NCBI GenBank assembly: GCA_900016865.1
Contig: FIZI01000006.1
Coordinates: 163,224-227,223, forward strand
Source of the DNA: an uncultured Clostridia bacterium
GTDB taxonomy: Bacteria > Bacillota > DTU014
Direction of reading: 5' to 3'
Length of the DNA: 64,000 nucleotides
The notes under the pieces are model-generated. The model saw only the letters and a program-made list of their open reading frames with translations. It had not been told where the DNA came from and did not search any database. Position numbers and translations under genes: made by a program. Positions 58,444 through 64,000 of the stretch are shown here, piece after piece. How positions within the stretch are numbered: the first letter of the stretch is position 1; each line of letters starts with the position of its first letter.

Positions 58444-58660
58444 GCTAAACACAACCAATGAGTCGATCGGCCCTACTGTGTACGTGGTCAAACTGACTTA
58501 TAATATTCCAACACAAATAACGTTGGGACCTAACTCTGTCGGTGGCGTGCATGCCTTCTAGCAGAGGACGCACAAAGTCGATGGGAGGGTTCCGCCCTGG
58601 AGGAATCGGGGATACGTTATAGGTCAGTGATAGCGGCATGGTGGGGCTTATTCTGTTGTA
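58444..58660 (+). ncRNA. ssrS: Probable 6S RNA (bsrA/ssrS-like)
   Basis: Two sets of distant complementarity frame a 6S-like rod. The closing stem pairs ACAAC (58451-58455) with GTTGT (58655-58659), and GGCCCTAC (58469-58476) with GTGGGGCT (58641-58648). Next comes an open bulge of 15 and 12 bases. A 12-bp helix then pairs ACTGACTTATAA (58492-58503) with TTATAGGTCAGT (58617-58628), with one G-T. The apical part has ATTCC/GGAAT and a hairpin AGGG/CCCT. 6S RNA binds sigma-A RNA polymerase by mimicking an open promoter. B. subtilis bsrA lies at the same place, ahead of yrvM (tcdA). The exact ends and terminator are not resolved. Confidence 0.68.
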
Positions 58661-59450: not shown

Positions 59451-60857
59451 GTGGACCTATTCCGGACCGAAGAAGGGCTTGACGCACCAGATAATGCCGC
59501 GGACTGTGCGCCTGACTGCGAGGACTCCCTGCCACTTGCCGAGAGGATGAGGCCAAGAACGCTCGACGAGATCGTAGGTGCAGATCACATCCTTGGGCCT
59601 TCGAAGTGGCTCAGAATCTTGATAGAGGCAGATAGAGTACCCTCGATGATTCTATACGGAAGGCCAGGAACCGGCAAGACGACGATCGCTCGTGTCATTG
59701 CCAGAGTTACGAAGCGAAGGTTTTACAGCATGAACGCGGTGATGTCCGGAGTTGCAGATATCCGCAGGGTCGTAGATCGAGCTCAGGACGATCTGAAGGC
59801 GAGGCGGCGGCGTTCGATCTTGTTCATAGACGAGATCCACAGGTTCAACAAAGCTCAACAAGACGCTTTGCTTCCGTTTGTGGAGAGTGGGGTGATTGCC
59901 CTCATTGGTGCCACGACAGAGAACCCCATGTTTAGCCTTGTTGGGCCGCTGTTGTCCCGCACTCGAATCGTAGAGCTGAACCCGTTAACTGATGACGATA
60001 TATCGTTGATAGTCAAGCGGGGCCTTCAGAAGGAAAACGAACAGCCTGGCAATAGGCCGCGAGTGGCCATCCAACCGGACGCACTCGGCCACCTCGTGCG
60101 TTCTGCAGGTGGAGATGCCCGCGTCGCACTCAATATTCTCGAGGCTGCCTGTTACTTAGCACGAGATAGGGCGAAGTCCGGTGCCAAGGCAAGTCCCGGG
60201 CAGAGAGAAACGGGTGCAGCCGAGTCTGAAGCTATGATCGATCTCTTGATCGTTGAAGAGGCGAGCGGCAAGACTGCTGCTTCGTACGACAGAAGCGGGG
60301 ACAACCACTACGACATTGCTTCAGCATTGATCAAGAGCATTCGAGGATCAGATCCTCAGGCGGCCGTTTACTGGCTTGGGCGTATGATTTACGCAGGAGA
60401 GGACCCGAGGTTTATCGCAAGACGCCTGGTCATTTCTGCAAGCGAAGACATCGGCATGGCCAATCCCAACGCCCTTCTCATAGCTGAGGCAGCTGCACAG
60501 GCTGTCGAGCGGATCGGCATGCCTGAGGCGCGGATCATACTGGCACATGTAGCTATCTTTCTAGCAAGCAGCGCCAAGAGCAATTCTGCGTACATAGCAA
60601 TCGAGCGTGTACTCAAGACGATAGAGGAGGGTGGCAACTACCAGGTTCCAAATCACCTGAGGGATGCCAGTTACAGAGGTGCGAGCCGGCTAGGGCGCGG
60701 CAAGGGCTATAAGTACCCTCACGACTACCCCGGCCACTATGTAAAGCAACAGTACTTGCCCGATCAATTGGCAAACGTAGAGTTCTACACCCCTAGCGAC
60801 CAAGGCTATGAACGGAGAGTGTCAGAACGACTGAATAGCCTGCGTAATGGAGGTTGA
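59451..60857 (+). CDS. rarA: Replication-associated recombination protein RarA (MgsA)
   Basis: A 468-residue AAA+ ATPase related to clamp loaders. It has PLAERMRPRTLDEIVGADHILG, Walker A GRPGTGKTT, Walker B ILFIDEIHRFNKAQQDALLP, sensor 1 GATTENP and a C-terminal tetramerisation domain (NHYDIASALIKSIRGSDPQAAVYWLGRMI, PNHLRDASY, YKYPHDYPGHYV). It acts at stalled forks. A short N-terminal extension of about 30 residues with three cysteines precedes the core. GTG 59451 follows AGGGGGGA. Confidence 0.95.
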   Translation: MDLFRTEEGLDAPDNAADCAPDCEDSLPLAERMRPRTLDEIVGADHILGPSKWLRILIEADRVPSMILYGRPGTGKTTIARVIARVTKRRFYSMNAVMSGVADIRRVVDRAQDDLKARRRRSILFIDEIHRFNKAQQDALLPFVESGVIALIGATTENPMFSLVGPLLSRTRIVELNPLTDDDISLIVKRGLQKENEQPGNRPRVAIQPDALGHLVRSAGGDARVALNILEAACYLARDRAKSGAKASPGQRETGAAESEAMIDLLIVEEASGKTAASYDRSGDNHYDIASALIKSIRGSDPQAAVYWLGRMIYAGEDPRFIARRLVISASEDIGMANPNALLIAEAAAQAVERIGMPEARIILAHVAIFLASSAKSNSAYIAIERVLKTIEEGGNYQVPNHLRDASYRGASRLGRGKGYKYPHDYPGHYVKQQYLPDQLANVEFYTPSDQGYERRVSERLNSLRNGG

Positions 60858-60936: not shown

Positions 60937-60965
60937 TTGACAGGACAATTGCCGCATGCTAAAAT
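60937..60965 (+). promoter_or_regulatory. Promoter of iscS-iscU-mnmA
   Basis: TTGACA (60937-60942), 17 bases, TAAAAT (60960-60965) with an extended -10 TGC. It lies in a 340-base gap without a gene (60858-61197) that otherwise holds the palindrome just downstream and a hairpin near the iscS start. In B. subtilis cymR occupies this gap; no such gene is present here. Confidence 0.8.
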
Positions 60966-60976
60966 CGAATTGTCGA

Positions 60977-61003
60977 TAAATCCGATAGATTTTATCGGGT
61001 TTA
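60977..61003 (+). promoter_or_regulatory. Rrf2/IscR-like operator palindrome before iscS
   Basis: Arms TAAATCCGATA and TATCGGGTTTA pair over 11 positions (one T-G) around a GATTT centre, beginning about six bases after the predicted transcript start. Position and architecture fit a repressor of the Rrf2 family (IscR or CymR), which control isc and cysteine genes. It could also fold as an RNA hairpin. Confidence 0.55.
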
Positions 61004-61162
61004 CATGAAACACACAATGAGTGACGGGAGGCCTGGTTAACTGGTGGACCAGTCCACAACCGATTCCGCGTGCATCCGCCCTTTGCTACAGAGGAAGTCT
61101 ACTGGAGTACCGGATGCTTTTTGAGGCGATTGAACCTGTCCGGGAAGGAGGGTCAGCAATCT

Positions 61163-61187
61163 GACGCCTGGCGATCAATCAGGCGTC
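61163..61187 (+). promoter_or_regulatory. Hairpin between ribosome site and iscS start
   Basis: Perfect 8-bp stem GACGCCTG / CAGGCGTC. A strong AAGGAGGG lies upstream at 61145-61152, 45 bases before ATG 61198; folding of the hairpin shortens that distance to about 20 bases. Confidence 0.5.
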
Positions 61188-61197
61188 GGCTGTCACC

Positions 61198-62379
61198 ATG
61201 AAGAGGATATACATGGATTATGCGGCCACTACTCCTACATCACCCGAAGTGCTTGATGCAATGAGGCCTTACATGCTCGAAGATTTCGGTAATCCTTCAA
61301 GCATTCATTCGTTCGGCCGCGAAGCCAAGAAAGCTCTGGATGATGCTAGAGGGAAAGTGGCGTCTCTGCTCTCTGTTGCACCTGAGGAAATCGTATTTAC
61401 ATCTGGAGGATCCGAATCCACGAATTTGGCGATTAAGGGATGTGCAACCGCGAACGCCAAGAGAGGAAGACATATCATAACCAGCAGCATTGAACACCAC
61501 GCGTGTCTCGATGCTGTGAAATACCTGGCGAGGAACGGGTTTGAAGCCACCTATCTTCCTGTAGACGGTGATGGAGTCATTGACCTCAATGCCTTGAGAG
61601 CCGCAATTCGAGATGATACGGTCCTTGTGTCTGTGATCCACGCAAGCAATGAGGTTGGGACTATACAACCCGTCAAAGAGATCATAGAGATCGCACATGA
61701 AAAGGGCGCTTTGGTTCATCTTGATTCGGTACAGACCGTAGGCGCTATTCCTGTAAACATTAGGGAGCTCGGCGCAGACCTCGTATCTATGTCTGCACAC
61801 AAGTTCTACGGGCCTAAGGGTGTAGGCGCTCTGTATGTTAGAAAGGGAGTCAGAATCACACCGCTGATTCACGGAGGCCCACATGAAAAAAAGCGCCGAG
61901 CAGGCACACAAAATGTAGCAGGAGCAGTCGGGATGGCCAAAGCACTTGAACTGGCCGTCGAACAGATGGATCAAGAGGTCCCCAGGCTGACTCGGCTCAG
62001 GGAAAAAATGATAGACGCCATCCTCTCACGGATTGACCATGTAAGGATCAATGGGCATCGGACACGCAGGCTTCCAAACAATGTGAACGTCAGCATTGAA
62101 TACGTCGAAGGCGAGGCAATACTGCTGAATCTCGATGTCAAAGGAATCGCGGTATCCAGCGGCTCGGCCTGTTCGTCTGAATCGCTTTCCCCGTCTCATG
62201 TGCTGCTGGCTATGGGCGTGCCGCCTGAGGTTGCGCACGGCTCGTTGAGGCTTAGTATGGGAAGAGGCACGACTGAGGATGACGTCGACTATGTCGTGGA
62301 GGCTTTGGTGGATATAGTGGCCAAGTTGCGACAGATGTCACCCTTGTACGTATCTGGCCCATGTGATTGCAAGGGCTGA
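61198..62379 (+). CDS. iscS: Cysteine desulfurase IscS/NifS
   Basis: A 393-residue class V aminotransferase-fold enzyme. It contains MDYAATTPTSPEVLDAM, SSIEHHAC, HLDSVQTVG, pyridoxal-phosphate lysine K202 in SMSAHKFYGPKG and the persulfide cysteine C325 in SGSACSSESLSPSHVL. It supplies sulfur for iron-sulfur clusters through IscU and for 2-thiouridine through MnmA, both encoded next. ATG 61198 keeps the commonly conserved KRIYMDYAAT start; ATG 61213 has AAGAGGA close upstream and may be the true start. Confidence 0.96.
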   Translation: MKRIYMDYAATTPTSPEVLDAMRPYMLEDFGNPSSIHSFGREAKKALDDARGKVASLLSVAPEEIVFTSGGSESTNLAIKGCATANAKRGRHIITSSIEHHACLDAVKYLARNGFEATYLPVDGDGVIDLNALRAAIRDDTVLVSVIHASNEVGTIQPVKEIIEIAHEKGALVHLDSVQTVGAIPVNIRELGADLVSMSAHKFYGPKGVGALYVRKGVRITPLIHGGPHEKKRRAGTQNVAGAVGMAKALELAVEQMDQEVPRLTRLREKMIDAILSRIDHVRINGHRTRRLPNNVNVSIEYVEGEAILLNLDVKGIAVSSGSACSSESLSPSHVLLAMGVPPEVAHGSLRLSMGRGTTEDDVDYVVEALVDIVAKLRQMSPLYVSGPCDCKG

Positions 62380-62416: not shown

Positions 62417-62815
62417 GTGTATAGCGAGAAAGTAATGGATCACTTCACTAACCCTCGCAATGTGGGGGAGATCATAGACCCTGACGGAGTCGGGCAGGTT
62501 GGCAACCCCGTGTGTGGGGATGTCATGAGGATTACGATACAAGTCGAAGACGGCAGGATAGCAGACGTCAAGTTCAGGACCTTTGGTTGTGGAGCAGCAA
62601 TAGCGACTAGCAGCATGATCACAGAGATGGCCAAAGGCAAGACTCTTGAAGAGGCGCTCAAGCTGACCAACTCGGCTGTCGCAAGAGCACTGGACGGCTT
62701 GCCCCCTGCAAAGCTGCACTGCTCAAATCTCGCAGCCGATGCTTTGCACGAGGCTATTAGCGACTATTACGCTAAGACACGGACGCGCGGTCAGGCATTG
62801 AAGGTGGGAGGATGA
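62417..62815 (+). CDS. iscU: Iron-sulfur cluster scaffold IscU/NifU
   Basis: A 132-residue scaffold with the three cluster cysteines C33 (GNPVCGD), C58 (FGCGAAIA) and C102 (LHCSNLAADAL), and MDHFTNPRNVGEI near the start. Clusters are built on it with sulfur from IscS. GTG 62417 follows AAAGGAGG (62401-62408). The C-terminal tail of about 15 residues is charged. The trio iscS-iscU-mnmA is typical of clostridia. Confidence 0.96.
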   Translation: MYSEKVMDHFTNPRNVGEIIDPDGVGQVGNPVCGDVMRITIQVEDGRIADVKFRTFGCGAAIATSSMITEMAKGKTLEEALKLTNSAVARALDGLPPAKLHCSNLAADALHEAISDYYAKTRTRGQALKVGG

Positions 62816-62822
62816 CCGCTGA

Positions 62823-64000
62823 ATGACAGTTGGCGCAAACCGACCGATCACCAGTGACCTGCGCGAGAGAGTGCTTTCGGGCGTGACTGTAGATGCAAAT
62901 GCAACTGTGGCTGTGGCGATGAGCGGAGGCGTTGATAGCTCAGTAGTTGCAGCTCTACTCAAACATCTCGGTTTTCATGTAATAGGCGTGACCATGAACG
63001 TCTGGCCCGAGTCCACTCAAGGAGCTGCCGAAGACGCTCAAGAGGTCGCAGATGCACTTGGCATCTCTCACCACGTTATCGATTTGAGAGAGCAGTTTCG
63101 CAAACTGGTGGTTGACGAATTCTGCCGCGAGTACGCAAGAGGCCGGACTCCTAATCCTTGCGTTATGTGCAATCCTCGGATTAAGTTCGGCCTTCTTTTC
63201 AGCCACGCGATGCAGCTTGGTGCAGATTGGTTGGCTACAGGCCACTATGTCCGGGTTACCCGCGATCCTGATTCCGGCCGTTACCTCTTGCTGAAAGGAA
63301 TTGACCCCCGAAGAGACCAGTCTTACGTGCTCTATCGCCTCACTCAAGATCAGCTCTCTCGGGTCCTGTTTCCCCTCGGAGGTTACCACAAACAAGAAGT
63401 CCGTGCTATGGCAGAGGACTTCGGGTTGTCAGTCGCAGACCGGAGCGAGAGCCGGGAGATCTGCTTTGTTCCGGATGACGACTACCGAGGCTTCTTGAGA
63501 AAACACGGAGCAGCCTCTGCTGATTGCTCTTTGGGCCGGGCCGCAAAGAGTCAGTGCAACAGAAAAGGAGCCATATTGAACACAAGCGGCGATGTTCTAG
63601 GAACGCATGACGGAATCGAGAACTTCACAGTAGGCCAGCGCAAGGGGCTTGGGATTGCTTTAGGCCGGAGACTGTACGTTGTCGAGCTTGATCCTGAGAC
63701 CAACTCGGTTATTGTAGGAGACGAGTCTGAGTTGTACTCATCTGAGTTGGTGGCAGGTGATTGCAACTGGATCAGCATAGATCGTCCCTCAGACTACATG
63801 CGTGCGTCTGCCAAGATCAGGTATGCGTCTCCACCGATCGGTGTCACCGTGCTCAGAGGCTCAGACAGCGGGGACCGCATCAGAGTAGTGTTTGATGAAC
63901 CAGTGCGAGCAGTCACTCCCGGACAAGCCGTGGTGCTTTATTTGGGAGACACAGTGGTTGGAGGCGGCACCATAGAAAGAGCGGTCAGAAAGCGCAGGAC
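62823..64000 (+). CDS. mnmA: tRNA-uridine 2-sulfurtransferase MnmA (3' end cut off)
   Basis: The frame runs from ATG 62823 to the window edge with no stop, about 392 codons, so at most a few residues should be missing. It has the PP-loop AVAMSGGVDSSVVAALL, catalytic cysteines in TPNPCVMCNPRIKF and SREICFVPDDDY, ATGHYVR, DQSYVLYRL and the C-terminal beta-barrel. It makes 2-thiouridine at position 34 of Lys, Glu and Gln tRNAs with sulfur from IscS. The N-terminus has about 30 residues ahead of the PP-loop, longer than usual; a later start is possible. Confidence 0.95.
   Translation, partial: MTVGANRPITSDLRERVLSGVTVDANATVAVAMSGGVDSSVVAALLKHLGFHVIGVTMNVWPESTQGAAEDAQEVADALGISHHVIDLREQFRKLVVDEFCREYARGRTPNPCVMCNPRIKFGLLFSHAMQLGADWLATGHYVRVTRDPDSGRYLLLKGIDPRRDQSYVLYRLTQDQLSRVLFPLGGYHKQEVRAMAEDFGLSVADRSESREICFVPDDDYRGFLRKHGAASADCSLGRAAKSQCNRKGAILNTSGDVLGTHDGIENFTVGQRKGLGIALGRRLYVVELDPETNSVIVGDESELYSSELVAGDCNWISIDRPSDYMRASAKIRYASPPIGVTVLRGSDSGDRIRVVFDEPVRAVTPGQAVVLYLGDTVVGGGTIERAVRKRR

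Follow-up and report, generated by a model that had tools for sequence, protein, structure and literature searches.

A conserved predicted IscR/CymR-type operator in front of iscS and its candidate Rrf2 repressor, encoded in trans next to cysK, in an uncultured Clostridia bacterium

Several described systems resemble the arrangement reported here. IscR of Thermincola potens is described as sensing Fe-S levels (PMC9338935). CymR of Bacillus subtilis and Staphylococcus aureus (PDB 2y75 and 3t8r) belongs to the same protein family as P0001, the candidate regulator identified in this study; CysK is reported as its partner (PMC2940859, PMC3828012), and it is characterized as having no cluster (PMC9338935), whereas P0001 has three cysteines. 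In C. perfringens, the genes rrf2-iscS-iscU-trmU (cpe1786-cpe1783) are reported to increase 3- to 6-fold in expression when cysteine is limiting (PMC2940859). In C. acetobutylicum, the Rrf2 gene CAC2236 lies next to cysK (CAC2235) and has predicted CymR/IscR-like sites, while a second Rrf2 protein, CAC1675, is assigned as IscR, and the IscR and CymR motifs are described as similar (PMC3828012).

The locus compared with these systems lies in a 64,000-nucleotide stretch of DNA (the window) from an uncultured Clostridia bacterium. Its iscS-iscU-mnmA operon has the same target gene order as C. perfringens, but the regulator gene that adjoins iscS in that species is absent from this place. The candidate P0001 differs from T. 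potens IscR in that its gene lies in a cysK operon rather than before iscS and in that its cluster is a prediction. It shares with C. acetobutylicum the position of an Rrf2 gene beside cysK, although the two roles that are divided there between CAC2236 and CAC1675 would fall here to one IscR-type protein. Given the C. acetobutylicum precedent and the C. perfringens response, no new kind of system is needed, and the locus is most likely a rearranged member of the known IscR/CymR kind in which the regulator gene sits with cysK. In the literature searched, we found no description of a cysK-linked iscR with the operator left at iscS. What had been a palindrome without a regulator can now be treated as a named pair of one operator and one candidate protein.

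All genes discussed in the window are on the forward strand. The upstream neighbor, rarA (59451-60857), encodes an AAA ATPase with NCBIfam PRK13341/RarA-type matches that fall below curated cut-offs. It is followed by an iscS/nifS cysteine desulfurase gene (61198-62379; TIGR03402, 556 bits, cut-off 530.75), an iscU/nifU scaffold gene (62417-62815; TIGR03419, 210 bits, cut-off 187.9), and mnmA for a tRNA 2-thiouridine synthase (62823-64000; NF001138, 410 bits, cut-off 284), the frame of which is open at the window end. A preliminary description of this DNA had noted that no regulator gene is encoded in the 340-base gap that separates rarA from iscS. We found zero Rrf2 ORFs in the gap, and blastn and tblastn searches with P0001 for a decayed rrf2 gave just one chance 9-base DNA match, so that this observation stands. 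The accompanying statement that relatives carry cymR or iscR before iscS is also borne out, with rrf2 directly 5' of iscS at 22 loci (counted on the iscS side). Farther upstream, we note a 6S RNA (58467-58651, forward strand; RF00013, 63.9 bits, gathering threshold 46.4) between hisS and a tcdA-like gene.

The promoter of iscS-iscU-mnmA is, as judged from its elements, of a strong sigma-70 type, with a -35 element TTGACA (60937-60942) and a -10 element TAAAAT (60960-60965) separated by a 17-bp spacer. Transcription would start near 60972. The predicted IscR/CymR-type operator, identified by matrix score and position, is a 27-nt imperfect palindrome at 60977-61003 (about +5 to +31), with arms TAAATCCGATA and TATCGGGTTTA that pair at 10 of 11 positions around a 5-nt center. 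It would thus lie just inside the transcript, as the preliminary description had proposed. The remainder of the leader (61004-61197) is structured and without an rrf2 remnant; the fold of 60973-61215 had a z score of -2.17, with 7 of 200 shuffles as good. Within this long leader, a hairpin (GACGCCTG/CAGGCGTC) stands immediately 5' of the iscS start codon, and the only other genome of the same family in our comparison (G001) has a different stem at the corresponding place, as judged by eye. An alternative iscS start is possible at a second ATG (ATGGATTATGCG; window positions 61198-61215; ribosome site AAGAGG), and both ATGs are also present in G001.

Symmetry of this kind is unexceptional. Five of 63,974 window positions had at least 11 of 13 complementary pairs, and 22 such cases occurred in 2 million positions of a Markov control. 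Because a bare palindrome is not rare, we built a weight matrix from promoters of 22 relatives from the phylum in which rrf2 lies between the promoter and iscS, none of them from the window's family. The matrix was seeded by a symmetric guess and refined on the same 22 loci, which include one poor scorer (L033, 10.6). The window operator scored 21.05 bits, the runner-up in the 64 kb scored 7.74, and none of 2 million positions of Markov sequence reached the operator's score, and a chance palindrome was rejected on this score. Just after its -10, the site also matches the consensus TAATTCCTACTAAATTAGTAGGAATTA of the IscR/CymR-type operators found at Bacillota-like iscR-iscS promoters. Conservation in close relatives had been suggested as a check, and the palindrome is kept both across the phylum and in G001, where, likewise without rrf2 in the gap, a site scoring 22.0 occupies the same place after the -10. 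In a MAFFT alignment, the unequal length of the two iscS leaders (operator-to-iscS-start distance 194 nt in the window genome and 88 nt in G001) put the operator out of register, and matrix positions were used instead. Together, the score and position predict that the palindrome before iscS truly binds a regulator and belongs to a known class of such sites.

A profile search of the window's genome (96.86% complete) found two full Rrf2 genes, along with a fragment that matched weakly, below the threshold; one of the full genes, that for P0001, encodes three cluster-type cysteines, which answers a check proposed in the preliminary description. This gene is directly downstream of cysK on contig C18, away from the iscS operon that is the usual, though not strictly defining, place of such genes. 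The best PDB match of P0001 is 4cic_A, over residues 2-150 (156.6 bits, compared with 123.5 for CymR 2y75 and 107.6 for IscR 4hf1). We take 4cic to be T. potens IscR, and by these matches P0001 appears closer to that protein than to CymR or proteobacterial IscR. The match to 4cic also provides a predicted fold. Against the NCBIfam equivalogs, P0001 scored 165.2 for CymR (NF047409, a model spanning all of P0001; cut-off 195) and 143.2 for IscR (TIGR02010; cut-off 207.55), under the cut-off in both cases.

Residues expected to matter for sensing and DNA reading are highly conserved. Our alignment held 34 proteins, one per genome and P0001 included (G009, G015, G023, and G030 were left out). The three cysteines of P0001, C92, C101, and C107 (C-x8-C-x5-C), were present in all 34, and a Fe-S cluster is predicted from them. 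The 4cic chain has serines at these positions, presumably deliberate mutations of the cluster ligands. Among the reading residues, E43 and Q44 were each found in 33 of 34 proteins and R59 in 34 of 34. We take Q44 and R59 to be DNA contacts in IscR. For E43, a table in PMC9338935 lists a DNA contact in E. coli IscR. With matching reading residues in P0001 and a conserved operator, iscS is therefore most likely controlled in trans by an IscR/CymR-type repressor. The earlier suggestion that the palindrome is read by a regulator encoded elsewhere is supported to this extent, with P0001 as the likely reader. We consider it very probable, on comparative sequence grounds, that the palindrome is the operator of P0001 and that this protein acts in trans, from a gene immediately after cysK, as a Rrf2 repressor of the Gram-positive IscR type. 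In a tree of 45 Rrf2 proteins, those of the window genome and G001 were joined (99/98), and the place of the pair among the others was not settled. As a separate observation, the promoter region of the second full Rrf2 gene, that for P0002 (L002 1420-1475), contains a near-palindrome of another kind, GTATTCGAGTAC, with a TldD/PmbA-like gene upstream.

The cysK-P0001 gene order is common to the window genome and G001, in which the partner protein is 73% identical to P0001. Elsewhere in the genome, a search for the same palindrome had been recommended, and a related site was indeed found at the cysK promoter, just after the -10. This site scored 9.7 in the window genome and 3.4 in G001, and it is weak by matrix alone, since a score of 10 or more occurs in about 1.6% of random 400-bp windows. 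Between the two genomes, 30 of 36 columns were conserved in the segment extending from the -10 across the left half-site and center, compared with 17 of 29 in the stretch preceding this segment and 41 of 93 in the one following it. We read the cysK-P0001 promoter as having a putative weaker, partly conserved copy of the iscS operator. Strong sites, scoring up to 27.8, are frequent at cysK in other relatives. The cysK-iscR spacer is about 290 bases long, GC-rich, and repeat-like in G001 (L118 1201-1490), compared with 48 bases in the window genome.

Genome-wide scans of the window genome and G001 with the degenerate pattern AWWHCCNAYNNWWTTNNTNGGDWWT, allowing up to 2 mismatches, placed sites at promoters only before iscS (both genomes) and cysK (window genome). 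Extra places, three in the window genome and two in G001, were inside ORFs or without a recognizable promoter and were rejected; in L182, the place matched by the pattern was not the best matrix window, which scored 8.7 and lay elsewhere. A first pattern scan with AATCCRAT-N(6,10)-ATYGG had given two further places, L115 and L116, and we rejected L115 as an extra site, its best matrix score being only 1.2. No IscR-type site was found at a sufC-sufB/D-like gene pair (L223 513-2172; matrix best 5.4). The genome has one SUFBD-core gene with respect to this pair.

The position of the operator suggests how control could work. A P0001 dimer bound at about +5 to +31 would block initiation or promoter escape, keeping iscS-iscU-mnmA repressed while the cell has ample clusters, and perhaps ample cysteine, and freeing the operon on shortage. 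Repression would be lifted once the cluster is lost or cysteine runs short, and the rise seen in C. perfringens on cysteine limitation fits a cysteine input at iscS. Through the site at the cysK-iscR promoter, the regulator would also feed back on its own gene, and cysteine synthesis would be coupled to the cysteine-using desulfurase. In the line leading to the window's family, iscR may have left, or been lost from, its place before iscS while the operator stayed.

Other readings of the palindrome fit the evidence less well. P0002 is a full Rrf2 protein (PF02082, 104 bits) with three cysteines of its own (C-x6-C-x4-C) and could be the one that reads the iscS operator. We consider this very unlikely and rejected P0002 as the reader because in it the positions of E43, Q44, and R59 of P0001 and its relatives are occupied by S, K, and P, and because its own promoter region holds no matrix site (the best score in L002, 5.3, lies inside the gene). 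P0002 also sits on a very long branch of the Rrf2 tree. A different possibility is that the iscS site is a vestige of a lost iscR gene, read by no protein now, as might be suspected from the missing regulator gene in the gap and the partly degenerate cysK copies. This seems highly improbable, given that the G001 site scores as high (22.0) despite an iscS protein only 78% identical and a leader of 88 rather than 194 nt, and that a regulator with matching reading residues is present in the genome.

The palindrome could also work in RNA, as a 5' leader hairpin involved in stability or attenuation, instead of as a DNA operator, and the folded leader does place it in an 11-pair hairpin. However, the sites of relatives agree in sequence, with CC and GG as their most constant positions, and in many of them the palindrome is imperfect. 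They precede many unrelated leaders, and by inspection the G036 site overlaps the -10. Rfam searches at gathering thresholds gave zero matches in the iscS leader, including at the palindrome. Of the readings considered, a function in RNA is the least probable, and an operator bound by P0001 remains our preferred explanation.

Separation of the regulator gene from iscS is not confined to the window's family. By coordinates, among the genomes whose iscS locus was available for comparison, the best Rrf2 gene was not directly 5' of iscS in eight (G000, the window genome; G001; G002; G021; G029; G034; G035; and G036), a count that does not include G023, whose best Rrf2 gene is about 10 kb from iscS. 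Six of the eight (G000, G001, G002, G021, G029, and G036) had an operator scoring at least 17.8 before iscS. In G034 and G035, no operator was found before the iscS examined (1.3 and 5.6), though these are also without an adjacent gene. From our reading of the ORFs, the separated Rrf2 genes have cysK upstream in G000, G001, and G036, cysK downstream in G021, an iscU-like gene as neighbor in G034, and a sufC-like ABC gene in G002. Adjacency of iscR and iscS is thus not fixed, and the iscS operator persists in six of eight cases after separation. Support is poor for the deep tree branches on which a date for the relocation would depend.

The C-terminal end of P0001 raises the question of whether a single Gram-positive protein combines Fe-S with cysteine sensing. 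The last four residues of P0001 are MYYI, the same as in 4cic, and 16 of the 34 aligned proteins, P0001 included, end in [ML]Y[YH]I. P0001 thereby has the aromatic-Ile tail that would be expected in a complex of the CymR-CysK type, and a similar ending, YMFYI, is found in G009 and G023 on CymR-like proteins that lack cysteines. We infer that the tail is of the CymR type and may bind CysK. CysK is reported to bind another partner, CdiA, via a C-terminal Ile peptide, GYGI (PMC12895370). Since the tail is CymR-type, joint Fe-S and cysteine (CysK) sensing can be proposed as an extension. It is possible, albeit rather doubtful, that P0001 and its tailed relatives are two-input regulators, with a Fe-S cluster held via C92/C101/C107 and CysK docking via a CysE-like MYYI tail, and with the gene having moved into the cysK operon in the window's family. 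If true, a single protein would adjust both iscS and cysK according to Fe-S status as well as cysteine supply.

A count across genomes is consistent with a link between the tail and control of cysK. A cysK operator was found in 10 of 18 tailed and 3 of 20 untailed genomes (Fisher p = 0.016, uncorrected for kinship). G016, G027, and G033, which lack the main Rrf2 protein, were left out of this count; G021 was scored as without a site (its operator lies before the rrf2-cysK pair); other Rrf2 copies of G035 were outside the tail scoring; and the count drew mostly on CysK matches of about 1e-75 or stronger. CysK itself was present in 41 of 41 genomes, so its presence cannot discriminate. The serine acetyltransferase-like proteins, which score below the cysE cut-off, end in PQIRKK in the window genome and PQIRRK in G001. 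With no terminal Ile in this best serine acetyltransferase match, IscR would remain as the partner of CysK that has an Ile tail.
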